From Verrucomicrobiaceae bacterium (GTDB lineage: Bacteria; Verrucomicrobiota; Verrucomicrobiia; Verrucomicrobiales; Verrucomicrobiaceae), in assembly GCA_015075365.1 (NCBI GenBank), contig JABTUN010000003.1:186001-250000 (forward strand): DNA of 64,000 nucleotides, in the 5' to 3' direction. The notes beneath the pieces are model-generated. The model ran no database searches. It saw only the letters and a list, made by a program, of their open reading frames with translations, and was not told where the DNA came from. Positions 12,208 through 39,845 of this stretch are shown here, piece after piece (the stretch's first letter is position 1; the number at the start of each line of letters is the position of its first letter). Position numbers and translations under genes: made by a program.

Positions 12208-12412
12208 TGAGAAGGGTCAAAGGGCACATAAACCTGACTTTCCGGCCCTGCTCGGAAAAAGTGGCTAAAAACCTGTCGTGGCTGCCGCCAGCCGCCGTGG
12301 AAATCATCACCGGCGGAACAGGGGGACATCGAAGAAATCATTGGCGTGCGCCCGGGCACGACCTTAAATCCCAACGTGACCGCCCCCGTGGTTGTCACAG
12401 CCCCTGAAAGCC

Positions 12413-13846
12413 ATGCCAAACTCTTCCGCCCTCCGCGACGCCCTCCAACAGTCGCCGAACAACCTGTCGCTGCTGCTCCTCTACGGCCGCGCCTGCCTGG
12501 AAGAGTTGCACCTCGACGAGGCGCGGGAGGTTTTCGCCCGCGCGCTCGACATCGATCCTGACCAGACCGACGCGCATCTAGGCATTGCCAAGGTGCTCTT
12601 CATGGAGGGAAACACCTCCGGTGCCGCCGTGCGCGCGGAGCGGGTGCTCTTTCTCGAACCGGACAATGCCTCCGCCCATCTCCTGCTGAGCCGCGTGCAT
12701 CTCAGCGAGGGTGACCGAGCCAAAGCTGTCGAGCACTTTGACCGCGCCGCGCAGATCGACGGCACCATGAGCGATCCCGCGTTGGAGCGGGAACTCGGCC
12801 GCACCGCGCGTGATGCGCGCAAAACGGCCCCAGCGCCCACGCCGGAGCCGGCCAGCCCGGAGCCCGCTCCGCCGCCAGGAAACGAGGGTGACGAGTTTTT
12901 TGATGACTTTGACGATCCGCCTTATGACTGGCGGCCGGAGACCTTCTACGCGCCCGGCGACCCGGAGCGCAACGCGGTCACCTTCGCTGATGTGGGAGGC
13001 ATGGAGGAACTGAAGGAGGAGATCCGGCTCAAGATCACCTACCCGCTCCAGTTTCCCGACCTTTATAAGGCCTACGGCCGCAAGACCGGCGGGGGCATCC
13101 TCATTTATGGACCACCTGGATGCGGCAAGACGCTCATCCTCCGTGCCGTGGCCGGCGAGGTGCCCTGCAACTACCTTGCCGTGGGCCTGCACGAGATCTT
13201 TGACCCGTATTTTGGCAGCACGGAGCGCAACCTCCATCAGATCTTCGAGACCGCCCGTGCCAACGCGCCCTGCGTGCTCGTTTTTGACGACCTCGACAGC
13301 CTCGCACAGGACCGCCGCCAGATCCGCGAAAGCCAGATGCGCAATCTCGTGAACCAGTTCCTCCACGAGATGGACGGCATCCGCGCGGACAACCAGCGCA
13401 TCCTCGTCATCGGTGCCACGAACCAGCCTTGGGCGCTCGATCCCGCCTTCCGCCGTCCCGGCCGCTTCGACCAGGCCATCTTCGTTCCGCCGCCGGATGC
13501 TCCAGCGCGCGCCCAGATCATCGAACTGCTTGCCAAGGACAAACCCATTGCCGACTTCGACGCCGCCGCGCTCATTGAGGCCACCAACGGCTTCTCCGGC
13601 GCGGATTTGAAGTGGGTCTTTGATCGTGCCGCCGAACTGGCGCTCTCCGCCGCCATCCATACCGGGCAACCGGTGCCCATCACGCTGGAACTGCTGCTCG
13701 CCGTCACCGCCACGCACAAGCCAACCACCGCCGAGTGGTTTGAAGGCGTGCGCACCCACGCCCAGCAGGCAGCCCCGGACGCCTTTTTCAACGAGGTGCG
13801 CAAGTTCCTCGCCGCGCCGTCGCCGAACACAAAGAAGGACCGTTGA
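12413..13846 (+). CDS. TPR-AAA+ ATPase (CDC48/FtsH-like)
   Basis: A 477-residue fusion. Residues 1-125 form tetratricopeptide repeats (YGRACLEELHLDEAREVFAR, LDIDPDQTDAHLGIAKVLF), 135-180 an acidic proline-rich linker, and 185-470 one AAA+ module with Walker A GPPGCGKT (about 233-240), Walker B VLVFDDLDSL, arginine-finger region FRRPGRFDQAIFVPPPDAPA and a C-terminal helical lid. No protease or membrane segment follows. The likely role is protein remodelling on clients recruited by the TPR part, but the client is unknown. The start is taken at the ATG at 12413; a TTG at 12392 would add seven residues. It lies immediately before tRNA-Arg. Confidence 0.85.
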   Translation: MPNSSALRDALQQSPNNLSLLLLYGRACLEELHLDEAREVFARALDIDPDQTDAHLGIAKVLFMEGNTSGAAVRAERVLFLEPDNASAHLLLSRVHLSEGDRAKAVEHFDRAAQIDGTMSDPALERELGRTARDARKTAPAPTPEPASPEPAPPPGNEGDEFFDDFDDPPYDWRPETFYAPGDPERNAVTFADVGGMEELKEEIRLKITYPLQFPDLYKAYGRKTGGGILIYGPPGCGKTLILRAVAGEVPCNYLAVGLHEIFDPYFGSTERNLHQIFETARANAPCVLVFDDLDSLAQDRRQIRESQMRNLVNQFLHEMDGIRADNQRILVIGATNQPWALDPAFRRPGRFDQAIFVPPPDAPARAQIIELLAKDKPIADFDAAALIEATNGFSGADLKWVFDRAAELALSAAIHTGQPVPITLELLLAVTATHKPTTAEWFEGVRTHAQQAAPDAFFNEVRKFLAAPSPNTKKDR

Positions 13847-13915: not shown

Positions 13916-13990
13916 GCGCCCGTAGTTCAACGGATAGAATGGTGGTCTCCGAAGCCGCAGATTCAGGTTCGATTCCTGACGGGCGCACCA
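13916..13990 (+). tRNA. tRNA-Arg (anticodon CCG), CCA encoded
   Basis: The cloverleaf folds fully: acceptor GCGCCCG (13916-13922) pairs with CGGGCGC (13980-13986), the anticodon stem GUGGU/GCCGC closes the loop CUCCGAA giving anticodon CCG (reads CGG), and the T stem UCAGG/CCUGA closes UUCGAUU. Discriminator A is followed by genomically encoded CCA. A GCCGG-AAAA-CCGGC hairpin follows at 13991-14004. The 3' half is the attachment core of the adjoining island; integration keeps this tRNA intact. Confidence 0.95.
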
Positions 13991-14213: not shown

Positions 14214-14918
14214 CTATACATCCATCGCTGCGCCGTTTTTCCTCAGCCACTCCTTTCGATCCCGATAGTCAGACATGATTTTATCCACCTCGTTCCAAAA
14301 TGCGTCCGTGTGATCAAGGTGATGCAAATGGCAGAGCTCGTGGACGATGAGATAGTCGATGACCGAGGCAGGGGCCATCATGCACTTCCAGTGCAAGGCA
14401 ATATTGCCTTTTGAAGAGCACGAGCCCCAGCGGTTGCCGAGTTCACGAACCGTCAGGCGGCGAACTGTCACGCCGACTTTCGGAGCGAAGTAATCTACGC
14501 GCTTCTGAATCCGTTCAAGCCCCCGAGCGGCATAGAAGGCCTGAAATGCCGCTTTCGCTGCTTCGACACCGCCTGAGTCGATGAGTTCCCTTCTCAGGCA
14601 AAAACGACCGCCTTTCAGCAAAAGCGGCGCAGGTTGTTTGGCTTTGAGTTGAAGACGGTAGGACCGTCCGAGGTAGAGAAACCCTTCCCCATTCCGATAC
14701 TCGCGCAGAACACGGGTGGCATTGGCGTCCCGCCACTCCGCCAGCGTCTTGTAGATCCACAGCCGCCGGGATTGGACGATGCCAGCGATGCGCTGTTCGG
14801 TCAGTTGTCTGGGGGCACGCACCAAGACACGTCCATCGCGCTCGACAACAATGTCTGCCGTCGTCCGCCTGGTGCGAACCACTTCATAGGTGAGATCTTT
14901 GTCGTGAGCGATTTTCAT
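14214..14918 (-). CDS. YgjP-type metalloprotease (DUF45, M48-like)
   Basis: A 234-residue DUF45 protein. The zinc site is VHELCHLHHLDHTDAFW (HExxH plus a downstream His), preceded by the family hallmark RELGNRWGSCSSKGNIALHW. The N-terminal 130 residues form the usual beta-rich YgjP region. Its ATG overlaps the hsdR stop by 4 bases, so it is translated as the last gene of the hsdR unit. Genes of this family very often sit beside hsdR in type I restriction loci; a role in processing or turnover of the restriction complex has been proposed but I know of no settled function. It is cytosolic with no signal peptide. Confidence 0.88.
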   Translation of the reverse strand: MKIAHDKDLTYEVVRTRRTTADIVVERDGRVLVRAPRQLTEQRIAGIVQSRRLWIYKTLAEWRDANATRVLREYRNGEGFLYLGRSYRLQLKAKQPAPLLLKGGRFCLRRELIDSGGVEAAKAAFQAFYAARGLERIQKRVDYFAPKVGVTVRRLTVRELGNRWGSCSSKGNIALHWKCMMAPASVIDYLIVHELCHLHHLDHTDAFWNEVDKIMSDYRDRKEWLRKNGAAMDV

Positions 14919-17900
14919 TTAACCAGCTCATCATGGCGTTTTTCGGCCAGCCTGACGATCTCGACGGCGATTCGCTCCTGCATGGCCACGACCTGGGGAA
15001 TGCCGGAGATAAGAATCTCGGTGCCGATGTTGCCCCGCAGTTTTCTCACTTCGATGGGCTTTTTCCAGAAGTCGATGATGTTGATCGTTTCCTGAAGCAT
15101 CTGGACCACTTTCAACATGAGCGCCTTCAAGGGGTCGGCGTGCTCAGGTGGAACGGGTGCATCACCAAACGCGATCTGCACGACGTGATCGTAGAAGGTT
15201 GATGCCTCTTTTGTCATGCCTTGATGAGCCTCCTTGCGCCCCTCGGACGCCTCGACGCGGAGTTTCTCATACTCCTCGGCCAGAACCTTCCAGTTGTCCC
15301 GGTGCTCCTGGATGAGCTTCTCCAGTTTTTCGCTCAGCTTTTTGTAAAAGGCTGGATCTTCATCAAAGTGGACCGTGCAGTGCTTGCGGATAGCATGTTC
15401 CATCTCGCTGGCCTTGGCCTCTGGGTCGCCGCCAGAGTGTTTCTGGACGTTCGCGATGAAGTCGTCCGAGAGCAGCTCAATCGGTGGAATCTTGGGGTTG
15501 ATGCCGAGGTCGATGAGGTGCTCGTTGATGAGATCTTTCACCTTGGCACCAGCGTCTGCAATATCGAGTGACTCGTCCTTGTAGCGCTCTTTGACCATCC
15601 GCAGCAAGTAGCCAAAACGTCTTGCAGGCACCCGATAGGAATGCCCGGCCGCATTGGGCAGAATCAAATTCAAGCTCATGAGAAACTTCTTCAAATACAC
15701 CTCGAAGTCCGCCCTTCGCTTGATGTCCTTCATCGCTGTGACAGCCGAATGAACGACCGCCACTTCGGCTTCCGGGTCTGGAAGCAGACCCTTCACAAAG
15801 TCTTCAATTTTGGAGACGCCGGCAGCGCGAAAATGCTGCAACAAGCGTTGATAGCGCTCTTCCAGAATGGGCAGCTCCGTCAGGAGGTCCTTCAAGCCGC
15901 CTTGAAGATCCTGCGCATCCTCCTCCGCGTAGATGGAAAGAGCCGTGGTGAGGTGGTTGGCCAGTCCAATGTAATCCACGATAAAGCCGCGTTGCTTGCC
16001 GGTCGCCACCCGATTCACGCGGGCAATAGCCTGCAACAGGTTGTGTTCCTTCAGCCGCTTGTCGATATACATCACCTGCTCCACAGGGGCATCGAATCCC
16101 GTCAGGAGCATGTCACAGACGATCAGGAAGGCGATGCCGGTCAGATCCTTGTCGGGATCTTCCAAATCGAAGGGCTTGCAGAAGTTTTCCACCGCGTTCC
16201 AGCGACGCGCTTCCTTCCGGGCCTCAGTCACCACAGCAAGTTCATTGGTGGCGTCGGACGAGACGACCACGACAGCCTTCAGGAAGGCAATCCGGCGGAT
16301 AAGTTCCGCGTCAGGCTTGGGCTTGAGCCTTTCCTGATCAAGCCGCTCAGCCAAAGCGGTTCTGATGGCTTTCTGGTAGCGCACGGCCGCGAGCTTGGAG
16401 TGGCATACCACTTGTGCCTTGAAGCCATCAGGCAGGATGTTGTCGATGTAATGATCGACCAGATCTCGTGAGATGGCCTCAATGCGCTTTTCAGCCTCCA
16501 GGATGTCCCCGCTCGCCCCATACTTGCGTTTGATGGCGGCGATCTCCTCCTCGGTGCGCTGGCGGAAAAGGTCTTCAAACTTGGTGTCAAAGCCATGCTT
16601 GTCCTTGAGGGCTGTCTCCGCTGTCCTCCCATCGTAGAGGATCTGAAGCGTGGCTCCATCATGCACCGCATCCATCAGCTTGTAGGTGTCGATGTATTCG
16701 CCGAAGCGCTTGGTCGTCCGCTTGTTACCGTGCTGTTCGGTGATCAGCGGCGTGCCGGTAAAGGCGATGCGCGTGGCATGGGGAAAGGCCTCGAAGATGT
16801 TGTCGCCGAGATCAGAGCCCTGGGTGCGATGCGCCTCGTCAATCATCAGCAGGATGCGTTCGGAGCGGTTCACCACTCCAAAGGTTTCGGCTGAAGGGGG
16901 CGCACCATAGCTCACCAGAGCTTCAGCCACCACGGCAGGAAGTTCCTCGCTCCGATCCATGAACTTGTGGGTCATCACCATGTTGATGTCGGAAGCGCCG
17001 CCGCTGAGATGGTCGCGGAGCTGCGCCGTGCTTTCGATCACGTTCACCTTGCCGCCGATGAGCTTGGCTGTGGCGGCGAGCTGTTCTTCGAGGTCCACAC
17101 GGTCATTGATGAGCAGAATCTTGATATCGGCGAGGTCCGCCGCTGCACGAATCATGCGTGCCACAAAGACCATCGTTAGCGACTTGCCGGAGCCCTGCGT
17201 ATGCCACACCACGCCCGAGCGCTCCAGCGGGCTCTTCCCCGCCCGCAGACGGTCGATGATCCGGCAGGCAGCGCGGTATTGCTGGTAGCGGCACACCACT
17301 TTCACGCGCTTGCCGCTGTCGGTATCCATGAAGACCGAGCAGGTGCGCAGGAGGTGGAGCAGCGTCTCCGGCGGCAGCATCCCCTGGATCAGGCGTTCCT
17401 GCTCGCGTTCGATGCCCAAGGGCGGCGTGTAGTTCCGATGGCGTTCCGGCCAGATGTCCTTCCAAGCGTAAAAGTGCTCGTAGCCTGAGGTGATGCTCCC
17501 ATAGGTCGCCTTCTCTCCGCAGGTCGAGATGAGCAAGAGATTGGTATGAAAGAGGCGGGGCTCGCCTTCGCGCAGGCCTGCTGCTTTCGTTTCCTTCCGG
17601 CCATCGCGGTAGCGCAGCAGTTGCTCAAAGGCGGCGTGCATTGGGTTAGCCGTGCTGGCGTCGCCGATCTTGGCTTCCACGATCACCAGCGGGATGCCGT
17701 TCAGAAAGAGCACGATGTCCGGGATGATGAACTCCTTCACACAACCGGGCGTGTCGATGCGGAACTGGTTGATGGCGTGAAAAGTGTTTCGCTCCGGGTG
17801 CTCGAAGTCGATCAGCTTCACCACCGGGTCAGGCTCGCCAGTTTCCTCGTTGCGATCCACCTGAGCCTTGAACAGCAGCTTCTGGATCGCTTCATTCGCT

Positions 17901-18151
17901 TCGAGCAGTGTCCGATTGGGCTGCCGCAGAATCTGGCTCCGCAGGTCGTCGAGCTGGCGGTCCGTCAGCCATGGATTGATGGCCCGCACCGCTTGGCGGA
18001 AGACTTCAGGCAGCAACCACTCACGAAAGGTCTTCCGCAGGCTCTTGGCTGGATCACTCGGGATCATGCCATGCCCTTGATCCACCACCGTCCAGCGCAG
18101 AGCCGAGAGCTGGTCGAGGAAAGGCTTTTCGACGTGGAGGTATTCCGACAT
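14915..18151 (-). CDS. hsdR: Type I restriction enzyme R subunit (HsdR)
   Basis: The motor-nuclease subunit that translocates DNA and cleaves it when the HsdMS complex meets unmethylated sites. It has 1078 residues. The N-terminal PD-(D/E)xK nuclease is seen at D145 (IIPDIVLFL) and E159-A-K161 (VIVEAK), the helicase Walker A at 320-324 (HTQGSGKSLTM), the DEAH box in LLMIDEAHRTQGSDLG, then the second RecA domain (LTGFDAPVEQVMYIDK, LLQAIARVNR) and a C-terminal helical region. All key motifs are intact. Unusually it is separated from hsdS and hsdM by nearly 8 kb of other genes on the same strand, which makes those genes candidates for one functional locus. Confidence 0.96.
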   Translation of the reverse strand: MSEYLHVEKPFLDQLSALRWTVVDQGHGMIPSDPAKSLRKTFREWLLPEVFRQAVRAINPWLTDRQLDDLRSQILRQPNRTLLEANEAIQKLLFKAQVDRNEETGEPDPVVKLIDFEHPERNTFHAINQFRIDTPGCVKEFIIPDIVLFLNGIPLVIVEAKIGDASTANPMHAAFEQLLRYRDGRKETKAAGLREGEPRLFHTNLLLISTCGEKATYGSITSGYEHFYAWKDIWPERHRNYTPPLGIEREQERLIQGMLPPETLLHLLRTCSVFMDTDSGKRVKVVCRYQQYRAACRIIDRLRAGKSPLERSGVVWHTQGSGKSLTMVFVARMIRAAADLADIKILLINDRVDLEEQLAATAKLIGGKVNVIESTAQLRDHLSGGASDINMVMTHKFMDRSEELPAVVAEALVSYGAPPSAETFGVVNRSERILLMIDEAHRTQGSDLGDNIFEAFPHATRIAFTGTPLITEQHGNKRTTKRFGEYIDTYKLMDAVHDGATLQILYDGRTAETALKDKHGFDTKFEDLFRQRTEEEIAAIKRKYGASGDILEAEKRIEAISRDLVDHYIDNILPDGFKAQVVCHSKLAAVRYQKAIRTALAERLDQERLKPKPDAELIRRIAFLKAVVVVSSDATNELAVVTEARKEARRWNAVENFCKPFDLEDPDKDLTGIAFLIVCDMLLTGFDAPVEQVMYIDKRLKEHNLLQAIARVNRVATGKQRGFIVDYIGLANHLTTALSIYAEEDAQDLQGGLKDLLTELPILEERYQRLLQHFRAAGVSKIEDFVKGLLPDPEAEVAVVHSAVTAMKDIKRRADFEVYLKKFLMSLNLILPNAAGHSYRVPARRFGYLLRMVKERYKDESLDIADAGAKVKDLINEHLIDLGINPKIPPIELLSDDFIANVQKHSGGDPEAKASEMEHAIRKHCTVHFDEDPAFYKKLSEKLEKLIQEHRDNWKVLAEEYEKLRVEASEGRKEAHQGMTKEASTFYDHVVQIAFGDAPVPPEHADPLKALMLKVVQMLQETINIIDFWKKPIEVRKLRGNIGTEILISGIPQVVAMQERIAVEIVRLAEKRHDELVK

Positions 18152-18158
18152 GAGGTGA

Positions 18159-18983
18159 CTAGGCTAGCAGCGCTTCGGCAAGCGTCACGCATTGCTGGCG
18201 GATTTGCAGCGACTCCGCCGCCAATTCCGGTTTGGTGTGCTGATTGTTCAGGCGAAAGGCGGCACAGGCTAGGCTGCCGTCTGCCTCGGCCGACAAAAAG
18301 CAGGTTTTCAATGCTTCGACGGCTCCTGCCATCCCCCGGTTGACTTCCCGCTCCGCGTGAAAGGCCGCGACTGCGGCACTTGGTCCTTCGGCGTAGTTCG
18401 TCAGCAGGTGCATCACATCATGCGCGTCCTTGGGCGCTTTGCGTCCCGTAGGACCACCAAACGCGTTCAGTTTCAGCACCAGCAGCGGTCCTACACTGGC
18501 GGTTTGCACGAGAACTGTCCTTTGCCCCCCAACCAAAGAGTGTCCGCTCACGGAGATGGCGTGGCGGGACAGCAGAGCCCGCTCGATTCCCGGCATGATC
18601 GACACGCCCAGCCCCGCATCCACCATGGCGGTGCCACGCTTGGATCTGCCGTCATCGGTTAGAAGATCGACATACATCTTCAGGCCTTCGATCACACGAA
18701 TGAAACGACCTTCTTCCCAGCGGAATCCGTGCCCGGCCAGTGTGTCGGTGATGCTCCCATACATGCCTTCTCCCGCCGCGAGACTGACACCGAGATCCAC
18801 GTCCATCGTCACAGCGCCGGGGGTGCCTTCGGCCGCAGGATGGGTCAGTAAATCTACGGCCAGCCCGCCCACGAGCACGAGATCATCATGATAGGCCGCT
18901 AGACTGTCCCAGACAGTGATCAGCGTGCGCCGGGCGAGGTCCAGCCCTTCCGGCGGATAGGCATCAAAGGTGGCGTGTTTCAT
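18159..18983 (-). CDS. AbiEii-like nucleotidyltransferase (putative toxin)
   Basis: About 274 residues with the nucleotidyltransferase signature LVLVGGLAVDLL followed by MDVDLGV, which gives the G-G and the D-x-D metal-binding pair of the Pol-beta superfamily; a further Asp lies in MYVDLL. This is the layout of AbiEii/MenT-type toxins, which modify tRNA or other targets when not restrained. Its ATG (18983) overlaps the upstream AbiEi-like stop by 4 bases, the usual antitoxin-toxin coupling; I prefer it to an upstream ATG at 19001 for this reason. It ends 8 bases before hsdR. Toxicity is inferred from the family and gene order. Confidence 0.75.
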   Translation of the reverse strand: MKHATFDAYPPEGLDLARRTLITVWDSLAAYHDDLVLVGGLAVDLLTHPAAEGTPGAVTMDVDLGVSLAAGEGMYGSITDTLAGHGFRWEEGRFIRVIEGLKMYVDLLTDDGRSKRGTAMVDAGLGVSIMPGIERALLSRHAISVSGHSLVGGQRTVLVQTASVGPLLVLKLNAFGGPTGRKAPKDAHDVMHLLTNYAEGPSAAVAAFHAEREVNRGMAGAVEALKTCFLSAEADGSLACAAFRLNNQHTKPELAAESLQIRQQCVTLAEALLA

Positions 18984-20008
18984 TGGGCAAAGCCCTCCCA
19001 TTGACGAAGTTCTTGAGCAGCCTCGGGACCGCGCAGTCCCTGGCCGATCAGGTCGAGGTAAATCTGCACATCACAGACCAGACGGAATCCTCCCGCTTCC
19101 TGCGTCTCCTGGAACACTCCTTCGTCCTTTGGCACAGCCAGCCAGAGGTTGCCACCGGCGTTCACCTCCCGGCTCAGCGGCAGTTTGAGCGCCACGGGCT
19201 CCCGCACATAAAAACTCGCCACGGGTGGGGTCGTGTGAGGGCGGCGCAGCCATGCAGCCAGCCATTGGGTCAGCAAAACGTTGTTCGCCCCCAGTTGATC
19301 CCGCACCTCGGCAGCCACCTGGAGCAGATCATTCGACAGCACCGAGAACTGGCGCACCAATGTCCGCCGTGACCATGCGTCTTCGGCACGCCAGCGGTCT
19401 AGCAGGCCATCGAAGTCCCGGAGCCGGTAGTGCAGCCGTCCGCGTTTGGAGGTCTTCGGCTCCTCCACTTCCAGGAACCTTTCTCGCACCAGTTGCGCCA
19501 GCACGCGCGAGGTCAGCCCGGTCGCCACTCGGGTCCTCTCCACCAGTTCCGCCTGTGTCCAGGCTGACTTCGTCCGTTGAGCCAGCAGGGTGCGGATCAA
19601 ACGGGCAGTTTTTGGGGCAAAGAGGTCCGGTTCCGCCGCTTGGGCTGCCCGGTAGGTGCTGCGTTTGGGTTCCCGGTCCCAGTGAATACCGTCCGCATGA
19701 AGAAACAGCCTGCCATTGAGGTCCGCATGGTTGATTCCGGCACGGGCGAGATCAGCCGCCAATGGAGCCGGGATGTGAGGACAGAGCAGCAGCGCAGGGG
19801 AACTGCCTGCCAGGTCCGGATCGTCCAGCAGCCGCCGGGATGGATGCAGCACCGGCTTGATCGCAAACTGCGCCTTTCGCCCCGCCGCCTTGACCACCAA
19901 ATCCTCCCCTACTCGCAGTTCAGCCCCCGGCACGGCCACCTCCGCCACGGTCCGGGGGAACTCGTGGATCAGTTGGGAGAGCTGGGTGATGGACTTGAAT
20001 GCACTCAC
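18980..20008 (-). CDS. AbiEi-like winged-helix antitoxin/regulator
   Basis: About 342 residues. The middle contains a winged helix-turn-helix (SAWTQAELVERTRVATGLTS, then RVLAQLVRERFLEVEE), and the C-terminus ends DVQIYLDLIGQGLRGPEAAQ, which resembles AbiEi-type proteins paired with nucleotidyltransferases. It is translationally coupled to the NTase gene. The start is uncertain: the longest frame opens at a TTG (20056), but the GTG at 20008 leaves a perfect 18-base palindrome just upstream as an operator, so I use the GTG. Expected roles are restraint of the NTase and repression of its own promoter. Confidence 0.68.
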   Translation of the reverse strand: MSAFKSITQLSQLIHEFPRTVAEVAVPGAELRVGEDLVVKAAGRKAQFAIKPVLHPSRRLLDDPDLAGSSPALLLCPHIPAPLAADLARAGINHADLNGRLFLHADGIHWDREPKRSTYRAAQAAEPDLFAPKTARLIRTLLAQRTKSAWTQAELVERTRVATGLTSRVLAQLVRERFLEVEEPKTSKRGRLHYRLRDFDGLLDRWRAEDAWSRRTLVRQFSVLSNDLLQVAAEVRDQLGANNVLLTQWLAAWLRRPHTTPPVASFYVREPVALKLPLSREVNAGGNLWLAVPKDEGVFQETQEAGGFRLVCDVQIYLDLIGQGLRGPEAAQELRQWEGFAQ

Positions 20009-20016
20009 TGGATTAA

Positions 20017-20034
20017 TTTCACTAGCTAGTGAAA
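20017..20034. promoter_or_regulatory. Perfect 18-bp palindrome, candidate operator
   Basis: TTTCACTAGCTAGTGAAA is a perfect inverted repeat 9-26 bases upstream of the GTG start of the AbiEi-like gene. Antitoxins of this kind commonly autoregulate by binding such repeats. If translation starts at the upstream TTG, the palindrome would be coding. Confidence 0.55.
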
Positions 20035-20169
20035 CATGTCTTTTAAGTGAAGGCAAGGGTAACTTTGAGTGTGCAAGCTTGCCTCCACAGATCGCGAAAA
20101 CTCGGGAAACAGCCGCTTATTGGTCCAGACCAATGACGGATAGTTGTTCAAACCTGTACAAACTGGTAG

Positions 20170-21051
20170 TCACCCAGCTTCCGCCTCCTGAATGGCTTTC
20201 AACGTCTTACCACCAGCATCTTTCCATTCCATACGGCCATTGGCGGCCCGCCCGAGGAGCACACCGGCGGCGGTGGACGGGCTATCCAGGTCGTAGTCTT
20301 GGGTGAACCGATAGGTGTTTCCATCAGCCACCATCACGCCTTGAGCCAGCAAATCTCGGCGCTTGGCGGCCATGTAGGCGTGAATCGCCTCGGACTCCTG
20401 AATCACGGCCGATGAACCCGCACACACGATGAACCCACCCGGCTGGGCATAGCCCTTGGCGGTGATAGACTTCGATTTGGGCGTTAAAAACAGCATCGTC
20501 CGGGCACTGGCAGCGGTTTTAGACTCTTTCTGCTCAAAGGCCGAAATACCCAGGAGAGGCAGCACTCGGAGCATGGTGCGCAGAAAGCCCTCCGCGTCCG
20601 CCGCATCGGCATCACCGAGGTTCGGGCCAGTTGGTTCGTTGCCATTGTCCAAATGGCAGCGTTTGGCGGTGGACGCTCGCTCGATCAGACGGCTCTCGAT
20701 GTATTGGGCGGCAGCCACATTCAGGGCGTTGTCCTTGCTCACAAAAAACACCGCCCACTCCCAGAAGTCCTTGTTCTTGTGGTGGGCATCCAAGCGCGTC
20801 TGAATGCGGTCACTTTGACCGATGTAGAGACTCGGCAGGGCACTTCCTTCCGGGCCGGGGCCAACCAGAATGTAAACGCCCGTTCGTCCAAACTCGTCTC
20901 TCTGACTCACCTCCCTGTAGGCCGCACGCGGGAAAGCAACGCCCACACCCGACCAGTTCGGCTGGTCGATCACCCGAAGGCCATCGGGATCTCCATGTGG
21001 CATGAAAAGGCGGACCGTGTAGGCGAGTTCGTTGAAGCGTTCTTGTGCCAT
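20170..21051 (-). CDS. GIY-YIG nuclease with DUF4357 domain
   Basis: A 293-residue protein. Residues 55-125 carry a GIY-YIG endonuclease core: GVYILVGP (58-65), LYIGQSDRIQTRL (75-87, with the YIG and catalytic arginine) and YIESRLI with the metal-binding Glu at about 119. Residues 200-290 match the DUF4357 domain (GGFIVCAGSSAV, the variable middle, and STAAGVLLGRAANG), a small domain often appended to nucleases and type I restriction proteins. It is 27 bases downstream of the protease gene and seems to be the last gene of that operon. A DNA- or RNA-cleaving effector role is plausible; the substrate is unknown. Confidence 0.85.
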   Translation of the reverse strand: MAQERFNELAYTVRLFMPHGDPDGLRVIDQPNWSGVGVAFPRAAYREVSQRDEFGRTGVYILVGPGPEGSALPSLYIGQSDRIQTRLDAHHKNKDFWEWAVFFVSKDNALNVAAAQYIESRLIERASTAKRCHLDNGNEPTGPNLGDADAADAEGFLRTMLRVLPLLGISAFEQKESKTAASARTMLFLTPKSKSITAKGYAQPGGFIVCAGSSAVIQESEAIHAYMAAKRRDLLAQGVMVADGNTYRFTQDYDLDSPSTAAGVLLGRAANGRMEWKDAGGKTLKAIQEAEAG

Positions 21052-21078: not shown

Positions 21079-22119
21079 TTACTCGAAGCCATCGGGCTTG
21101 TCTTTGATCTCCGAAAGATTCAGCGTCAGCACCGTGTCACCGGCATCGCCGATGGCGGCAATCGTAAACCCTTCCGCAGGATAGAACTCGGTGCTGGCGG
21201 TTCCATTTTTGGAAACCGTCTCAAACATTTCATAGGAGTCCTCTTTTTTGCGGCCAAAGCCGGGATAAGTGATGAAGGTCACATATCGTCCACGAGGTTT
21301 CGGAGATCCCGGCAGGCGGCGATAGGTCGCTTCTACCACAAAGCGTTCTTCCTCGTGATCCCAGCTCACCTTGGCAGTCAGGCATCGCTGGCGGTTGTTT
21401 TCGAGAAGTCCGAAAAGGTCGAGATTCGGGTCGTCCACGTCCAGATCATGCACGGTGGGCCGGTCGGACGGCGGGATGCGAAAACGCACGGGCAGATCAT
21501 TATAAAACCGGCAAAGCACCCGGCTCGGGATGCACCAGGACACCCCATGATCAAACAGCTCGCGCACCACGATGCCTACAAATGCTTTTAGATCCTCTGA
21601 CCACACCGGCGCTCCGCTGAAGCCGCCTTTGACGAAAAGAGCACTGTTCCCGTCCATCTGAACCAGCCCAGCAGCATTCGCAGCATGCAGCAGACCACTG
21701 GCGTTGCGTCCCTGCGGGTCACCGTCGGGAAAGCCCAGCACGGAGTAGCGCTTGCCACCATGCCGCAGAGGCGTTGCAAACTCCATCGCAGGGATATTGA
21801 AGCTGCGGCTCAATTTCAGCAAGGCCAGATCGTTCAGCGCAGACTTGCCACGGGCATAGGCACCCAGTTTGATCACTCTCGCCAGCACCACCGGCTGTCC
21901 ATCCATCCCGATGATTTTCACGCGGACAGTCGTTTTGAGGTCGGGCTTCTTGTCGCGGTTCGCAGCCTGGACGACATGGTAGCAGGTCAGGATATGCTCA
22001 CCGTCGATCAAACAGCCCGCGCCGACGAAGCTTCTGTCTAACCCGAGTAATCCCGCCACACGAGCCGTCTCGGGATCAGTCGCTCGCAGTGTCTGCGTTC
22101 TGACTCTTGGTATTTTCAT
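21079..22119 (-). CDS. Trypsin-like serine protease with C-terminal beta-sandwich domain
   Basis: A 346-residue cytosolic protein (no signal peptide). Residues 20-205 are a trypsin-like domain with a full catalytic triad: H48 in ILTCYHVVQAA, D97 in LNDLALLKL and S168 in GGFSGAPVW. Residues 225-340 form a beta-rich domain (VEATYRRLPGSPKPRGRYVT, and FTIAAIGDAGDTVLTLNL) that resembles prokaryotic YEATS-type sandwiches, a tentative match. The whole protein is homologous to the first 330 residues of the KAP fusion at 22663-26073, where the triad is lost. It starts 1 base after the Trypco1 stop. Such intracellular trypsins with Trypco partners are known from predicted conflict systems; the substrate is unknown. 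Confidence 0.88.
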   Translation of the reverse strand: MKIPRVRTQTLRATDPETARVAGLLGLDRSFVGAGCLIDGEHILTCYHVVQAANRDKKPDLKTTVRVKIIGMDGQPVVLARVIKLGAYARGKSALNDLALLKLSRSFNIPAMEFATPLRHGGKRYSVLGFPDGDPQGRNASGLLHAANAAGLVQMDGNSALFVKGGFSGAPVWSEDLKAFVGIVVRELFDHGVSWCIPSRVLCRFYNDLPVRFRIPPSDRPTVHDLDVDDPNLDLFGLLENNRQRCLTAKVSWDHEEERFVVEATYRRLPGSPKPRGRYVTFITYPGFGRKKEDSYEMFETVSKNGTASTEFYPAEGFTIAAIGDAGDTVLTLNLSEIKDKPDGFE

Positions 22120-22120
22120 G

Positions 22121-22450
22121 TCATTCTACTGTTTTGGTGTTTTCCCACTCAAGCGTCACTTTGAAGTTCCCTTTGGCTGAGGCACCGGTGATCAGCGGGA
22201 TGCCTCCCTCGACTCCCAACTCGACACCGAACTCGATGGCGATCTTACCGGGGTTGTTGAGTTCTTGCAGCTTCTTCCGAATCGACTCGGCCAGGGTTGT
22301 GATCGGCTCAATGTGCTGTTCCAGTTCGATGGCGGCTTTTGCCACTACTTTGCGGGAGGCATTGCGTGGCACGTTACCAGGTCCTGTGCTCTCGATTAGC
22401 ACGAGCTTCTGATTCTTACCTTTTCCGACTTTGTAAGCGACGGTTTGCAT
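22121..22450 (-). CDS. Trypco1 (CU044_2847-type) trypsin-associated protein
   Basis: A 109-residue protein with the pattern of trypsin-co-occurring domain 1: an N-terminal beta hairpin (LVLIESTGP), a helix (AESIRKKLQEL) and the hallmark C-terminal IEFGVELGVEGG followed by KGNFKVTLEW. The family is typically encoded beside intracellular trypsin-like proteases in NTP-dependent conflict systems and is thought to be an adaptor or regulator. Here its stop is 1 base from the active protease start, so the two are surely co-translated. The 212 bases upstream, before the KAP fusion gene stop, show no gene and may hold a promoter for the Trypco1-protease-GIY-YIG unit. Confidence 0.78.
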   Translation of the reverse strand: MQTVAYKVGKGKNQKLVLIESTGPGNVPRNASRKVVAKAAIELEQHIEPITTLAESIRKKLQELNNPGKIAIEFGVELGVEGGIPLITGASAKGNFKVTLEWENTKTVE

Positions 22451-22662
22451 GATTGAGCGGTGGTTAGGTTTGTGGGGGGGCTATGTTGATAGGCGACTAG
22501 TCACTAAACTTGCGAATCGGTCCGAAAAACGAGTGAAGATTGATGGAAATGGAGTCTCTAAACATGGCCTTGAGCGTCACCAGATGATGACGACCCAAGC
22601 AGCACTAAACAGTAGCCAAACACATTTTTAATCTGGAAGGCCTAAAACATATACCCGGCACT

Positions 22663-25600
22663 TCAAAAAGAATATCGTTTCACCAGCGGCAGCCAGTATT
22701 GAATCTTCCCTTCATCAAAAGGCGCGAACTTCTCCGCTTCAATCTCTGCGAGGGCCTTCATCAGGGCATCCCAGTCTGGATGAGGGCTGCTAATCTGTGG
22801 AGTCCAGGTTTTCAGTTCGATCACACGCCCGAACCAGTGCTCGCGGGCCAGGGCCGGATACGCGGCGGCGACCGCGAGCATTAGAAGTGGGTAACGATAC
22901 TCGGGAAGGTCATCGGCCCAAGATCCCGCTCCGATGAACATGTCCCAGTAAATCTCTTCCACCCCTGTGCGGATCAAACAGTATGTGTTGGCCAGTCGCT
23001 TAACCGCGCGGGGCGTGCGGAATAGCGGCTGGCATGATTTGAGGTCGCGATGCTCCCGATACTCCAACTTGAGCCGCATTGGGATGACCGGTTTGGGTTC
23101 CGGGGGCTTGGGATCAGCAACAGTGGTTGCCTGGCTCGCTTCATGAACTTCTGATCGGATCTCGGGTTGCTGAGCAGCACCCGCGTTTGACTGGGGTGTA
23201 GTAGCTGCTGTAGCACTGGAAGCCGTGGGGCTCGCCGCCGCACCACCCGATTGCATCGTGGAAGTCGGTGCTGGGTTTGCTAGGGCTGCAACGTTGACTG
23301 AGGCTGGAGCCTCAGCTTTTGGCTTGTGCCAGTCCACTGGCAAAAGTTCGTCCACCAGCCTGTCAAAGCCATCTCGCTCGATGGGTTGCAACTGGAACGG
23401 CACTTGAAAAATCTTCTCCAGATAGTCCAGCGGGCTGGCCAGTTGATCCCGCCCCTCCTCGGTCTTCCCGCCATTTCGGCTTCGACCGCTCGCGAGGAGT
23501 TTAGGGTAGTGCTCCAGCAAGCTTTTGCGCAACCAGCGCGGGTCAACAGCGACAACCACGGCAAAGATTGGGAAGGACAGCAGCAGGTGTACCGCCTCCA
23601 ACACTTCGATCACACGGCTGGATTTGCAGCGGTCCAGATCGTCAATATACAAGACAATGCGGTCAAGCATCGGGCTGTCCCCGTCTTTGAACTCCGCTCC
23701 TTCCTGCAAAAGAGAACTCAACTGCTTGAAGTCTCGTCGAACCAGGCTGACCAGCCCGAGGTGCTGCCGGTAGTCGTTCGCACCGGAGCGTTGTTCGAGA
23801 AATTTCAGGAGCCTCCTGCCGGGTGCGAGTTCTCGCAGTTCCGACTCGATGGCCCGCACTTTGGCTTCTGCGTCATGCAGCGCCTGCTGAGCCTCGGCTT
23901 CCTTTCTGATATGGGCATCGAGCTTTGCCTGCTGCTCGGCCGGTTCCTTGCCGCTGAGCACTTTTTCGCGTGACTTCTTCACGCTTTCATAGGTCGCCTC
24001 CAGCGTGTTCAACAAATCCGTGCCGCGCTTCGTTTGCGCCGACAACCAGGCCGCCATCGCACCCAGCAGTGAAACAGCCGCCGTCACATTTCGCGTAAAT
24101 CCGGCGAGGCCGCCTTCCATGTTCAAAATCCATGGAACGACGGCGGCCAGCACCACAGGCACGGCCAACGCTACGAACAACAGCACCAGCCGCTGCCAAC
24201 GACCATCCGGGCTCAACAAGGTAAGAGCGAGGTTGCGAAATCTGCCCGCCAAGCTCCTTGCCTCCAAGGCGCGGGTTTCCAATTCGGTGTAAGACTGCGA
24301 CAGACGCGTCAGGCCGAATGCGTCAGCCAGCTTCTTTAGTTGCTCCGACAGGCCGGCATCGGTGGCTACCTTGCTCAAGTCGTCGATGAAGGCTGCAACC
24401 GACTTCTCCTGCTCTTCGCGCTTCTTTGCAGCTTGCTTCAGTTCCTCTTCCGCGGTCTCGCGTGCCTTCTTCGCATCGTCTAGCGCCTTTTTGGCTTCGG
24501 CGGCCAGCGCGCTTTCATCAGCCAGTTTCTTCTTCAGCCTCTCCACCTTTTCGTTTGGGGTGTCCTCCCGGTCGGTCAGGGCTTGGAACAGGTTGTCAAA
24601 GATCTCGCAGACCAGATTCGCCCACAGGTTGGTGTCGAGATAGTGCCATGCATTGAAGTGGATCTGGACCACCTTCCGGCAGAACTCATCGTGTGCCTTG
24701 TTGGCGGACAGAGAATCAATCTCCTGATGTAGCAGCCGCATGAAATAGCTCTTGCCCGTGCCCCAGTCCCCGAACAGGCCCAGCGACAGCGGCAGAGGCG
24801 TCTCCCGGGCGGTGATCAACTGGGCGAGGTGACGCGCATGCTCGGCATTACCCAGCGCATCCTTCAGCGGGGTCTTCAGGTTTCGTGGATCGAAGGCCAC
24901 CAGATCCGTTTCAAACCGGGTGTAAGTCAGTTGGTATTCCGGCACCGGTTCGATCGAATCTTTCTGGAGGATTTTCTTCAAAAAGTCGACCTCCGCTGAT
25001 TGCGATGGGAGTGACGACTCTGCCGGTTCCTCCCTCGCTTCCTCGCCTGGTTCAGCGATTTGCTCACTCGTCACCACTGGCGCAGCTTCCGGCTTCACGA
25101 TCTCCATCAGATTCAAGGTCAGCCTTGTCTCGCCGCCGTCGCCAATCGCCGCAATGGTAAAATCCGGCACGAAGGGACTCGCTTCCACCTCGGCCTTCCC
25201 GGAAGAATCAAGCTCAGCGATGAGCTCGTAGTCCTTCATGTCGGGATAGGTGAGGAAGGTCACAAAGCGCCCCGCAGGTGCGGGTGAGTTGGGCAGCACC
25301 TCATACTTCATTCTCACCCGGGAAAATCCATCTGGATGCCTTTCGACGAGCGTGGCCGTCAGCCTCCTCCTGCCGTTGTCTGATACGTTTCCAAACATTT
25401 CCGCATTGGGATCATCTACGGAATAGTTTTTGATCTTGGGTCGGTCGGCTTCGGGGATGCGGGATATCACGCCGATGTCTGGGAACACCTCACAGATGCG
25501 CGCGCTCGTGATACACAGCGTCGGATCACGGTCGTCCACCAAACCGACAAAAGCCCCCAAGTCGGGTGACCAGACCGGCGCGCCCATGTAGGCTCGATCT

Positions 25601-26073
25601 GCATGATATCCAGTCAGTTGCCACCGCCCCCCTGGCCGTTTCCCTTTCCACCCACAGGTGTCCGCGACGCCATTAGGCTGGTCCGGTGAGAAAGTCTGGA
25701 CCACGAACATTTTGTTCTCCAAAATCAACGGCGTGGCAAATTCAGCGGCTGATGCGCCTTCCCAGACTTCTTTGCCAGCGAACTGCAACATGGCCAAACC
25801 GTCGTCGGGTTCCCGCCCTGGCTTTTGATCAAGCAGAACCATGGGTAAAACGACACCGCTCAGATTTCCCACCGGCGAGACAAAAATGTAGTTACGATAG
25901 GAGGTTCTTTCGAGGGCCTGCTGGACCACGGCTCGGCTCGTAAGCACGTGCTGCCGGTCCACGAGGCATCCGACCCCCAACATTCCCCGTTCACCGGCCC
26001 CCAGATGAATAATCACCAGCGAACTGACTGCATGTGGAGGGAGATTGGGTATTCCTTGGGAAGCCGGTTGCAT
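22663..26073 (-). CDS. Pseudo-trypsin fused to membrane-anchored KAP P-loop NTPase
   Basis: A 1136-residue fusion. Residues 30-205 are a trypsin fold in which all three catalytic positions are changed: A48 (VLTSRAVV), G92 (DDGLAMLQ) and M163 (AYMGAPVW). Residues 215-325 repeat the beta-sandwich of the neighbouring protease (AGRFVTFLTYPDM, DFTIAAIGDGGETRLTLNL). From 390 on is a KAP-type STAND-like NTPase: Walker A GDWGTGKS (435-442), NAWHY, long coiled coils (505-570 and 690-750) flanking two membrane helices (about 628-650 and 662-680), and Walker B IVLYIDDLDRC (806-816). A low-complexity Ala/Thr/Pro linker (920-998) precedes the C-terminal helical part. It is 20 bases after hsdS. KAP ATPases act at the membrane in signalling and phage defence. 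Confidence 0.87.
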   Translation of the reverse strand: MQPASQGIPNLPPHAVSSLVIIHLGAGERGMLGVGCLVDRQHVLTSRAVVQQALERTSYRNYIFVSPVGNLSGVVLPMVLLDQKPGREPDDGLAMLQFAGKEVWEGASAAEFATPLILENKMFVVQTFSPDQPNGVADTCGWKGKRPGGRWQLTGYHADRAYMGAPVWSPDLGAFVGLVDDRDPTLCITSARICEVFPDIGVISRIPEADRPKIKNYSVDDPNAEMFGNVSDNGRRRLTATLVERHPDGFSRVRMKYEVLPNSPAPAGRFVTFLTYPDMKDYELIAELDSSGKAEVEASPFVPDFTIAAIGDGGETRLTLNLMEIVKPEAAPVVTSEQIAEPGEEAREEPAESSLPSQSAEVDFLKKILQKDSIEPVPEYQLTYTRFETDLVAFDPRNLKTPLKDALGNAEHARHLAQLITARETPLPLSLGLFGDWGTGKSYFMRLLHQEIDSLSANKAHDEFCRKVVQIHFNAWHYLDTNLWANLVCEIFDNLFQALTDREDTPNEKVERLKKKLADESALAAEAKKALDDAKKARETAEEELKQAAKKREEQEKSVAAFIDDLSKVATDAGLSEQLKKLADAFGLTRLSQSYTELETRALEARSLAGRFRNLALTLLSPDGRWQRLVLLFVALAVPVVLAAVVPWILNMEGGLAGFTRNVTAAVSLLGAMAAWLSAQTKRGTDLLNTLEATYESVKKSREKVLSGKEPAEQQAKLDAHIRKEAEAQQALHDAEAKVRAIESELRELAPGRRLLKFLEQRSGANDYRQHLGLVSLVRRDFKQLSSLLQEGAEFKDGDSPMLDRIVLYIDDLDRCKSSRVIEVLEAVHLLLSFPIFAVVVAVDPRWLRKSLLEHYPKLLASGRSRNGGKTEEGRDQLASPLDYLEKIFQVPFQLQPIERDGFDRLVDELLPVDWHKPKAEAPASVNVAALANPAPTSTMQSGGAAASPTASSATAATTPQSNAGAAQQPEIRSEVHEASQATTVADPKPPEPKPVIPMRLKLEYREHRDLKSCQPLFRTPRAVKRLANTYCLIRTGVEEIYWDMFIGAGSWADDLPEYRYPLLMLAVAAAYPALAREHWFGRVIELKTWTPQISSPHPDWDALMKALAEIEAEKFAPFDEGKIQYWLPLVKRYSF

Positions 26074-26093: not shown

Positions 26094-27431
26094 TTAACTT
26101 TCCTTGGATGAATCAACCCGCACCCGGCCCGTCAGCAGGTCCTGCATCAGGCCTTGTTTTTGCTGGCGGAGTTTGGCGAAGACTTCTTTTTCGAGCACGA
26201 TTTGCTGGTTCATGGCACTCATAATGGACAAGCTCGTGCGCTGCTCACCTCGGGGCGGGCGGGCGATTTGTTTGCTCAAAATTCTTCCCGGTGACGTGTG
26301 GCGGACTGTCGTCCCAGTCGCTTCAACGATGATCTGTCTGCGAAGACTTTCATTGTTCAGCGCATGACACAGGTAATTCCATTCCCAGCCAGTCTTGTTC
26401 TTCAAATTCACTCGACCCACCCGCTGGTTGTGCAGCACAGGAAAGGTCGTTTCAACCAGTGCAAAGCGCCCAAGGATCAATGTTTGAGGCGAAAGGTCGG
26501 TCATCACGGTGACCATTTCGCCGTGTTCCAAAATCGTTTCCTTTGGGATTGGACCCTGGAAATACTTGGTGTTGCCCGCTGTAAAATACAGACCCCCGTC
26601 ACGATGAAAGTTGCCTGGAGTAAGTAATACCGAGCCGGGCGGCACATCTGAAAAGAACTCACCCGAGAATGCGAAACCGTGTCCGATTCCAATTTCGGTC
26701 TGAAGCGATACAATCTCCCACTCCTTCGGGAGCCAGCCGAGAGGGGTTTCGTGGTAGAGGTGGGGGGCTTCTTGGCGGGTGGGGCGGAGGTGGCCGTCGG
26801 GGGTGACGCCGCGCGTGAACAGGTCGTGCATCAGCCCCGCCTTCAACTGCTCCAGCTTCCCCACCAGCGCCTCCGTCTGCTCCATCGCCTCGTCCACCGT
26901 CGTCAGGATTTCGGCGATCCGGCGCTGTTGAGGTGGAGGTGGAATGCGTGTCCGAATAGCAAGATAGGAACCTTGCGAGATATTCTTCATGCTACCGCTG
27001 GTGCCAGTCGCGGCGCGTGAAACACCTGCGCGAAACTCTGGTGATTGGACCACAAAGCTTAGCCACTTCGTCGAGGTCTCAAGGCCACTACGGAGGACCG
27101 TCTGCCATAGTCTGTCAGGCACGAACAGGTTCGGAAAATCTCCTCCCACATAGGCAGTCTCACCGACGAGATCGAACGTGTTCATTCGGCTAATGAGAAC
27201 CGAATCGGCTCGCGGGTTCAGTGCCGCTCGGACTACTTCACTGGCTACGATTACCTTGTTTTGGCTTGGATCGAACTTACCGCCATTGACACAACTGGTT
27301 TTGAGAATGCCGAACTCATCTGGCGCACAGGGTTTATCCTCGGAGTTGACGCTGACACCAGATTCCAGTCTCTCAACCAAGGTCGAAAGCGGTTCATCCT
27401 TCCAGCCTTGTGGCAAAGGGAGGTTACTCAT
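26094..27431 (-). CDS. hsdS: Type I restriction-modification specificity subunit (HsdS)
   Basis: The DNA-recognition subunit of the type I complex. The 445 residues hold two target-recognition domains (about 1-160 and 225-400), each followed by a conserved helical spacer: [20 protein letters not shown] and [18 protein letters not shown], and at the C-terminus [20 protein letters not shown]. The two different domains imply a bipartite asymmetric target that cannot be predicted by eye. It overlaps hsdM by 8 bases, so M and S are coupled, and is followed after 20 bases by the KAP fusion gene rather than hsdR. Confidence 0.94.
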
Positions 27432-31827: not shown

Positions 31828-32934
31828 TTAAGCCTCCCAAGGCAACCCCGTTTTGCCAAAGTGCCCATAATTGGTTGTCTGGCCGAAAATCGGCTGGCGC
31901 AGGTTCAACGATTCCAAAATGGCTTCGGGTCGGAAATCAAACCCGCGCAAGAAGCGGGCTGCGAGGGCCTCGTCTCCCGTGCCCTGTGTGTCCACGGAGA
32001 TCGACACCGGCCGTGCCACGCCGATGGCGTATGCCACCTGCACCTCGCATCGGCTTGCCAATCCTTCCTTCACCACCTGTTTTGCGGCGTGGCGGGCAAA
32101 GTAGGCACCGCTGCGGTCCACCTTTGTGCCGTCCTTGCCACTGAAGGCTCCGCCACCATGCCGGGCAAAGCCACCGTAGCTGTCCACAATGATTTTTCGC
32201 CCGGTAACCCCGCAGTCCCCCTCAGGCCCGCCTATCGTAAAACTGCCCGAAGGGTTCACGTGTAGCGTGATGTCGTCGTGAGCCCACTGCAGGAGGCAGT
32301 CGGGGATCAGCACAGCCCTCACATAATTCAGGATGGTCGATTGATCGGTGTTCAACGCATGCTGTGTGGAGACCACCACGGCTTTCACTTCCTTGGGCTC
32401 GCCATTCTCATAGGCAACAGTCACTTGAGTCTTCGCATCTGGCCGCGCCCAGGGAATCCTGCCTGTTTTGCGGTCCTGGGCAAGCTGGCGGGAAAGGCGA
32501 TGCGCCAGTGTGATTGGCAACGGCATTGCCTCAGCAGTCTCCGTGCTCGCGTAGCCGAACATCAATCCTTGATCACCCGCGCCCAGTTCGTTCCCCTCGA
32601 CGACGGCCCGAGCGATCTGGCAGCTTTGAGCGCCCAGCAAGTTCTGAATCCGCAGTCCATCGGCGTGGAAGCGTTCGGCCGGATCAACATAGCCAATCGA
32701 CCGCACACATTCACGCACGATACGATCCAGTTCATCTTCTGAGAGCGGCCCTTCATGGCTGCCAATCTCACCTGCAAGGATCACATGCTGGTCTTTACAG
32801 AGCACCTCGCATGCGACGCGGGCATGGGGATCACGCCTCAGGCTCGCGTCCAGGATGGCGTCAGCAATGGTGTCACACACCTTGTCTGGATGTCCCTCTG
32901 TGACGGACTCTGAAGTAAACAACCCGGTCTTCAT
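31828..32934 (-). CDS. metK: S-adenosylmethionine synthetase (island-borne MetK)
   Basis: Makes AdoMet from methionine and ATP. From the ATG at 32934 the protein has 368 residues with the family blocks FTSESVTEGHPDKVCDTIAD, ELGAGDQGLMFGYASTET, the ATP-binding GGGAFSGKDGTKVDRSGAY and SISVDTQGTGD. The usual GEITT segment reads GEIGS. The start is fixed by a strong AAGGAGG Shine-Dalgarno sequence 7 bases upstream, rare in this window, and by an ATGA overlap with the small gene before it. It is odd to find metK as island cargo; the host should have its own. The nearest AdoMet user in the island is HsdM. Confidence 0.93.
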   Translation of the reverse strand: MKTGLFTSESVTEGHPDKVCDTIADAILDASLRRDPHARVACEVLCKDQHVILAGEIGSHEGPLSEDELDRIVRECVRSIGYVDPAERFHADGLRIQNLLGAQSCQIARAVVEGNELGAGDQGLMFGYASTETAEAMPLPITLAHRLSRQLAQDRKTGRIPWARPDAKTQVTVAYENGEPKEVKAVVVSTQHALNTDQSTILNYVRAVLIPDCLLQWAHDDITLHVNPSGSFTIGGPEGDCGVTGRKIIVDSYGGFARHGGGAFSGKDGTKVDRSGAYFARHAAKQVVKEGLASRCEVQVAYAIGVARPVSISVDTQGTGDEALAARFLRGFDFRPEAILESLNLRQPIFGQTTNYGHFGKTGLPWEA

Positions 32935-33179
32935 ACCCCCCTCCTTTCCGGCGTGGAAATGGCCGCCTTTTGCAGACGCGACAGCAAGGCATCTCGCCGC
33001 CGGCGCGCCTGGACGAGGTCTCCAGTGCGCAGGGAACGGCGGACCCGCTGTTTGGTTCCGCTTGGGCAGTGGAGTGTGAAATGACACCACCAGGTGCCGT
33101 TGTTGTTCCACAAGTGATGGTCATCGTTGTGCGCACTCTGGCGCAGCGATAGATGAAATGATCGGCGAAGCAGGCTCAT
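32931..33179 (-). CDS. Small integrase-arm-like DNA-binding protein, coupled to metK
   Basis: 82 residues from the ATG at 33179, with a central NNNGTWWCHFTLHCPSGTKQ followed by RVRRSLRTGDLVQARRRRD. This resembles the N-terminal arm-binding beta-sheet domain of tyrosine integrases, but no core-binding or catalytic domain follows. Its TGA overlaps the metK ATG (ATGA), which argues that it is translated and not random. It is either a remnant of an integrase whose rest was replaced by metK, or a stand-alone DNA-binding protein. The family match is by eye. Confidence 0.5.
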   Translation of the reverse strand: MSLLRRSFHLSLRQSAHNDDHHLWNNNGTWWCHFTLHCPSGTKQRVRRSLRTGDLVQARRRRDALLSRLQKAAISTPERRGV

Positions 33180-36468: not shown

Positions 36469-37473
36469 TCACCATCGTCCTGAACAGTCGAAACCAGGTA
36501 GGAAATGGTAAGCCCAGTTCTCTGGATCAGATCTACCCGCGCGGTTCCTCCCGTTGTAGATCAGGCGGATCATGGGAGTGCCGGCGCGATAGAGCCGAAT
36601 GTCATGAACAGCGCTGCTGAACCTGCCGCGCCAGCACCTTTCCTTGGGCTTGATTTTTAGAGCCTTGCTGACATTCTGATTTAGCGGCTCAAGCAATATC
36701 TCCTTGATGGCCGACCGTGTTGGTTCATCGGTCCTTGCAATGATTGATGGAAGTGCAAAAAGGCGCAAACACTCCAGCGCATCTTCAACCGACATTGCCC
36801 AGAGAGCTAGGGCGAGCCAATATTCGAGTAGTGCCGGCGCGAGTTTCAGAACGGTGACGCCCTTCACATCGAGTTTGATTTTATCGTTCTTGCCTTTGCG
36901 TGCTTGTTTAACGGATTCCAACGCCTCACGATAACCAGGCAGGGACTGGCTGCAGTTGAACAAACCTCCCAAACCATGGGACACCGCCACCACCCAGGCA
37001 TGCCCTTCCACATCCAGCACGCCGCGTCCTGCCATGTCTTCGGCCAGTCCCTTTTGAAGCGCGCGCATCAAATCCAGGCATTTCATGCGTTGCGCCGCCA
37101 TCGAAAGCTGCTCCCGCACTCGATGCATCGAAGCAAGAGTCGGGATGTCTAGGTGGCGGGTTCTTCCTGGCAGGATTGCTTCGTAGGTAGCAATGATGAC
37201 CTGCTTGAATGCGTCCGGGCACAGAAGCCCATTGTTCATCAAGATCGTGATTTGCATCCTGATTTCCGAGGGCAGTTTCCCCCACACCTCAGTAGAAACT
37301 GAATTTATCAATTCTAAATCCTTATCAGCCTCCCGAATCTGAAGATCAGTGGGAGAAAGCTTCGCGTGTGCCGATGAGACCTCGCTTTGCCTCATATCGG
37401 ACAAAACCTTCAGCATTCGCATAATCATGTCAGAGTCGGCCTTGGATTCGGAGGCGACGGTCTCTTTATTCAT
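36469..37473 (-). CDS. Unknown protein coupled to the integrase
   Basis: A 334-residue soluble, mainly helical protein with no recognised domain. Landmarks are an N-terminal polar helix, VWGKLPSEIRMQITILMNNG and a basic C-terminal part (ALKIKPKERCWRGRFSSAVH). Its ATG overlaps the integrase stop by 4 bases, so it is translated with the integrase and is likely part of the mobility module. Confidence 0.6.
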   Translation of the reverse strand: MNKETVASESKADSDMIMRMLKVLSDMRQSEVSSAHAKLSPTDLQIREADKDLELINSVSTEVWGKLPSEIRMQITILMNNGLLCPDAFKQVIIATYEAILPGRTRHLDIPTLASMHRVREQLSMAAQRMKCLDLMRALQKGLAEDMAGRGVLDVEGHAWVVAVSHGLGGLFNCSQSLPGYREALESVKQARKGKNDKIKLDVKGVTVLKLAPALLEYWLALALWAMSVEDALECLRLFALPSIIARTDEPTRSAIKEILLEPLNQNVSKALKIKPKERCWRGRFSSAVHDIRLYRAGTPMIRLIYNGRNRAGRSDPENWAYHFLPGFDCSGRW

Positions 37474-38643: not shown

Positions 38644-38644
38644 G

Positions 38645-39843: not shown

Positions 39844-39845
39844 CC

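Follow-up and report, generated by a model that had tools for sequence, protein, structure and literature searches.

The locus analysed here raises the question of whether a KAP NTPase with a trypsin-like N-terminus and the Trypco1 and trypsin genes encoded beside it act as a single defence system, or whether they are separate passengers of a type I restriction locus. The window, a 64,000-nucleotide stretch of a Verrucomicrobiaceae contig (JABTUN010000003.1) to whose numbering the positions below refer, carries on its minus strand, according to the ORF listing and Pfam and PADLOC scans, the genes hsdM, hsdS, KAP, Trypco1, trypsin, GIY-YIG, AbiEi-like, AbiEii-like, hsdR, and ygjP, in that order. 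The restriction backbone comprises hsdM (27424 to ~29940; PF02384, 2.1e-98), for which 30021 is the start of the longest ORF but ~29940 is where DNA similarity to relatives sets in, hsdS (26094-27431; identified in the Pfam and PADLOC scans), and hsdR (14915-18151; PF18766, 4.4e-66), followed by a YgjP-like metallopeptidase gene (14214-14918; PF01863, 2e-58). Downstream of hsdS, which forms the upstream edge of a cargo slot, lie the genes for the 1136-residue KAP protein (22663-26073; PF07693, E=1.1e-32), a Trypco1 protein of the CU044_2847 family (22121-22450; PF19493, 1.5e-19; NF041216, 5.4e-17), a trypsin-like protease (21079-22119; PF13365, 2.9e-13), and a GIY-YIG nuclease with DUF4357 (20170-21051; PF14267, 1.6e-20; PADLOC PDC-S14, 3e-96). 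The downstream edge is formed by an AbiEi-like winged-helix protein (18980-20056; assigned by position and a MarR-type match), which is kept in four relatives, and an AbiEii-like nucleotidyltransferase is encoded between it and hsdR (18159-19001; PF08843, 9.4e-5). The four cargo genes named in the original prediction are therefore all present where and on the strand that it gave; its placement of them between hsdS and hsdR was correct but incomplete, as the two AbiE-like genes are located there too. The intergenic gaps, taken from the coordinates, are 20 bases between hsdS and KAP, 212 between KAP and Trypco1, 1 between Trypco1 and trypsin, and 27 between trypsin and GIY-YIG. Given the 212-base gap, KAP and Trypco1 may be on separate transcripts, and a promoter scan of the locus gave a signal no higher than in shuffled sequence.

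The argument that KAP and protease act together begins with the relationship between the two trypsin regions. Along its full length, the standalone trypsin is a paralogue of the N-terminal ~340 residues of the KAP protein, the two sharing 38% identity overall, 34% across the protease portion, and 46% across the C-terminal portion, a similarity that, judged from the alignment, is beyond chance. The standalone protein has the catalytic triad H48/D97/S168, which is intact in 17 of the 17 trypsins compared (itself and 16 from Trypco1-type or related loci) and absent only from the KAP copy, where all three residues are gone (H48 to A, D97 to G, and S168 to M). These replacements bear out the view that the N-terminal trypsin fold of the KAP protein (residues 1-205; 25459-26073, delimited by alignment with the adjacent trypsin and the 16 others) is a pseudoprotease. 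In a tree in which most other forks are unresolved, the KAP copy and the standalone trypsin cluster with support of 93/90, the KAP-side branch being long (4.21 vs 1.55). Both proteins appear to end their shared region in a divergent pYEATS-like beta domain, an assignment that is tentative because neither C-terminal part directly matches PF20305 (pYEATS) in Pfam and the link runs only through the G301 protein, which shares 30% identity with residues 217-325 of the KAP arm (25099-25425) and itself matches PF20305 at 7.1e-6, slightly below the cut-off. Alignment and tree together identify the arm as a duplicated and, by prediction, catalytically dead version of the active trypsin-pYEATS protein, and it is this paralogy that supports the cooperation between KAP and protease that had been proposed for the locus.

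The remainder of the KAP protein has the features of a KAP P-loop NTPase, with PF07693 above the cut-off, intact Walker A (GDWGTGKS) and Walker B (LYIDDLDR) motifs, and membrane-spanning segments inside the domain, where a transmembrane hairpin is predicted between the two motifs from a hydropathy peak and from helices in a low-confidence model (residues ~624-684; 24022-24204). KAP proteins are known to have transmembrane segments inside the domain; one of them, the antiphage NTPase Tmn, has two transmembrane domains (PMC11846954). AlphaFold gave models of low quality (pLDDT 35 and 49), and Foldseek fold searches returned no match at E<=0.001. Relatives of the KAP protein, at ~28-45% identity, carry other N-terminal domains in place of trypsin, and none carries trypsin: the N-terminus is TIR in L005, L009, and L015, PG_binding_1 in L006, WD40 in L018, and has no family assignment in L007, L008, L010, L011, L016, L017, L060, and L061. 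Such exchange is as expected if the N-terminal position behaves as an effector or adaptor slot, a role suggested by these domain assignments. On one plasmid (L015:5153-10100), the gene for the TIR-KAP protein adjoins a DUF4062 gene, with SIR2 and DarT genes close by.

The other half of the trio is a recognizable unit, as Trypco1 and trypsin form a genuine cassette that is combined with one NTPase or another. It is represented here by adjacent genes with a 1-base gap and an intact triad, and Trypco1 is also located directly upstream of active trypsin in the comparison loci. In plasmids of Streptomyces and Rhodococcus, a CU044_2847-family Trypco1 directly precedes a trypsin-headed protein of ~1,400 residues, and the two such proteins that were scanned contain nSTAND1 and/or WD40 domains. 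In the seven genomes with matches in a search of a cyanobacterial phylum, Trypco1 precedes the matches, except for a second trypsin copy in G524, and the NTPase partner is VMAP, iSTAND/MoxR, or nSTAND1-WD40; across all comparison loci, the switches comprise nSTAND1-WD40, VMAP, iSTAND/MoxR, and AAA. Kaur et al. defined Trypco1 and Trypco2 by their co-occurrence with trypsins and reported inactive trypsin domains in a vWA component (PMC7159879); a KAP partner for Trypco1-trypsin was not found in the main text of that paper.

The VMAP/iSTAND ternary and nSTAND systems described there resemble the present locus in placing Trypco1 beside an active intracellular trypsin coupled to an NTPase switch, and inactive trypsin domains were also described, as regulators or peptide binders. 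In contrast, a membrane KAP NTPase takes the partner role here, with no MoxR, vWA, VMAP, or STAND partner, the dead trypsin is on the NTPase while the live trypsin is separate, and pYEATS-like domains are present on both. Assignment to the VMAP/iSTAND ternary system was rejected, as none of the ten locus genes scanned encodes a MoxR AAA, vWA, VMAP, or iSTAND component, and an nSTAND-trypsin fusion was rejected as well, as the trypsin ends in the pYEATS-like domain and the NTPase is KAP. Tmn is similar by description, having a KAP domain with inserted membrane segments, but it is a single gene, whereas the present locus comprises several genes and its KAP protein carries a large pseudoprotease arm at the N-terminus, and there was no Tmn model among the PADLOC matches of the locus. 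The likeness to QatA and PifA is confined to the KAP ATPase domain, where the PADLOC and NCBIfam matches are located, and a Qat system was rejected, with the QatA equivalog scoring 86 of the 600 bits needed and QatB, QatC, and QatD absent among the annotated locus genes.

The insertion between hsdS and hsdR is in itself ordinary. Four relatives have HsdR proteins that are 85-90% identical, and the cargo was compared in the three whose slot lies at least partly on the contig: G037 holds an AbiEi/AbiEii pair between hsdS and the AbiE-like pair, G023 holds a PifA-like KAP gene and a GIY-YIG gene split over two frames, without trypsin, and G056, which matches the DNA of hsdM and of part of hsdS at 96% identity, holds a gene for a GmrSD-like protein and a 176-residue ORF. 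The space after hsdS is thus a cargo slot, with a conserved backbone and contents that differ among these relatives. Insertion into a type I restriction locus is not novel, given this other cargo and the published RRDM island of enteropathogenic E. coli, in which defence genes of foreign origin likewise separate hsdS from hsdR and a metallopeptidase gene comes after hsdR, the cargo there being DarTG2 (PMC12255303).

No second pseudotrypsin-KAP, Trypco1, and trypsin trio was found in ~1,000 sampled genomes, 72,556 plasmid records, and IMG/VR contigs; sensitive profile searches covered a sample of the genomes, the scan of genome contigs for the full KAP protein relied on patterns drawn from a single sequence, which distant relatives can escape, and in IMG/VR 11 weak matches were scored on the KAP domain alone. 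The trio was equally absent from 388 genomes of the same phylum searched with the KAP arm and a KAP profile. A trypsin-plus-arm profile, run on the phylum to which a cyanobacterial locus belongs (244 genomes) and on that of a Burkholderia locus (398 genomes, without a positive control), likewise gave no trio, and neither did the plasmid and phage searches. In the sequences searched, the Trypco1-trypsin cassette recurs with other NTPases, but the trio does not. Half of what the original prediction had named as counting against a system was observed, in that KAP relatives occur without trypsin and Trypco1-trypsin pairs occur with other NTPases. With no second trio, the system view rests on the paralogy and on the logic of the cassette, not on co-inheritance. 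Most likely, known modules have been combined in a new way in the trio; the combination at the locus is real, intact, and unusual, and represents a protease-coupled NTPase conflict system in a new variant.

The strongest competing explanation is that the KAP gene and the Trypco1-trypsin pair are two unrelated items of cargo, made adjacent by the pile-up of defence genes, and that the KAP N-terminus is the decaying leftover of a trypsin fusion. The fast change of slot contents between relatives, the 212-base gap between KAP and Trypco1, and the separation of KAP from Trypco1-trypsin everywhere else searched would all fit such a history. However, the KAP arm and the trypsin are mutually closest among the proteins compared and have in common a pYEATS-like domain that is on no other trypsin in the comparison, and the reading frame of the arm is open at full length, with the non-catalytic part the best conserved. 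On balance, we regard unrelated cargo as unlikely.

It is also conceivable, with a still smaller probability, that the functional pair is protease and nuclease, the trypsin activating the GIY-YIG nuclease as in the metallo-beta-lactamase (MBL)-fold pairs of Hachiman and AVAST, with KAP as the sensor. The 27-base spacing between trypsin and nuclease is tight, proteolytic activation of nucleases has been published (PMC12799240), and in two further type I restriction-modification loci (G316 and G023) a GIY-YIG gene directly follows KAP, the KAP of G316 being of the same family and located between hsdS and another GIY-YIG gene. The Hachiman, AVAST, Lamassu, and DRT nuclease-protease pairs share with the present locus a trypsin-like protease in NTP-dependent defence and an adjacent nuclease gene, but in those pairs the nuclease is of the MBL fold and is encoded upstream of the protease, whereas here a GIY-YIG gene is downstream, the active protease is unfused, and Trypco1 and a pseudoprotease are present (PMC12799240). 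As the genes upstream of the trypsin are Trypco1 and KAP, an MBL nuclease-protease pair was rejected. Furthermore, the same GIY-YIG family occurs elsewhere without a nearby trypsin or KAP match, G023 has no trypsin, and a check of other genomes found no general association of this family with KAP or trypsin. Whether the nuclease is part of the module is uncertain, and the idea that the protease cleaves the nuclease or HsdR finds no support. In L060 (3-10935), a type I restriction-modification locus without trypsin or Trypco1, KAP directly follows hsdS and overlaps a GIY-YIG gene; KAP followed by GIY-YIG is a recurring order in hsd loci. That the protease instead regulates the restriction enzyme, degrading HsdR in restriction alleviation or sensing its failure, is very improbable, for although the genes are located within the hsd operon and ClpXP alleviates type I restriction (discussed in PMC12255303), the relatives with 85-90% identical HsdR and the same restriction-modification system carry unrelated cargo without trypsin.

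Our preferred reading, to which we give about an even chance, is that the pseudotrypsin-KAP protein, Trypco1, and trypsin form a defence module, with NTPase and protease coupled, that is cargo of a tRNA-integrated type I restriction island and in which KAP gates the cassette via its dead arm. Defence systems in which an NTPase or helicase is coupled to a trypsin-type protease are known (PMC12799240, PMC7159879), and the protease-activated nucleases of Hachiman and AVAST are the nearest experimental precedents (PMC12799240). In such a module, Trypco1 would keep the active trypsin latent, by holding or chaperoning it, while the KAP NTPase at the membrane would sense infection and change its oligomeric state. 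The pseudotrypsin-pYEATS arm could then dock the active trypsin, either in a direct pairing of the two paralogues or through a Trypco1 or ligand that both bind, and clustering would turn the protease on, akin to pseudo-caspase/caspase pairing. The activated protease, acting as effector or as initiator, might cleave proteins of the cell or of the module, halting phage growth, probably via growth arrest or cell death. The more specific proposal, that a membrane KAP NTPase uses a fused pseudoprotease, derived from an active protease, to govern that protease, as a prokaryotic counterpart of pseudo-caspases on a mobile restriction island, is one that we put forward tentatively and consider doubtful. 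If the coupling is real, KAP NTPases become a further type of switch for Trypco1-trypsin cassettes, and the locus offers a compact three-protein system in which to probe the role of Trypco1 and the control of a live protease by its dead paralogue. The locus also reveals that the N-terminal domains of a KAP family are exchangeable.

The hsd locus directly adjoins a tRNA-Arg(CCG) gene (13916-13990, plus strand), the 3' 47 bases of which (13944-13990) are perfectly repeated at 38744-38790 on the same strand, a presumed att site; a perfect 40-base repeat of the tRNA 3' end is located at 42134-42173. Adjoining the repeat at 38744-38790 is a split gene resembling tyrosine-recombinase integrases by motif rather than by family search (37470-38661, minus strand; overlapping frames 38059-38661 and 37470-38192). 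The first two repeats likely bound an island of 24.8 kb in which the restriction locus lies, with the third ending a second, short segment. The hsd loci of G037 and G023 adjoin tRNA-Arg(CCT), and that of G056 (L054:142-12840) adjoins tRNA-Leu, the 3' 39 bases of which are repeated just upstream of hsdM, so that the hsd unit itself looks mobile. A tRNA-integrated restriction island with cargo differing among close relatives is a practical hunting ground for new defence genes. By eye, the presumed island also includes an S-adenosylmethionine synthetase-like gene (31828-33111), an IS3-type transposase-like ORF lies between the second and third repeats (39654-40706), and a gene with TPR-like and AAA ATPase regions is located beside the tRNA, outside the island (12392-13846).
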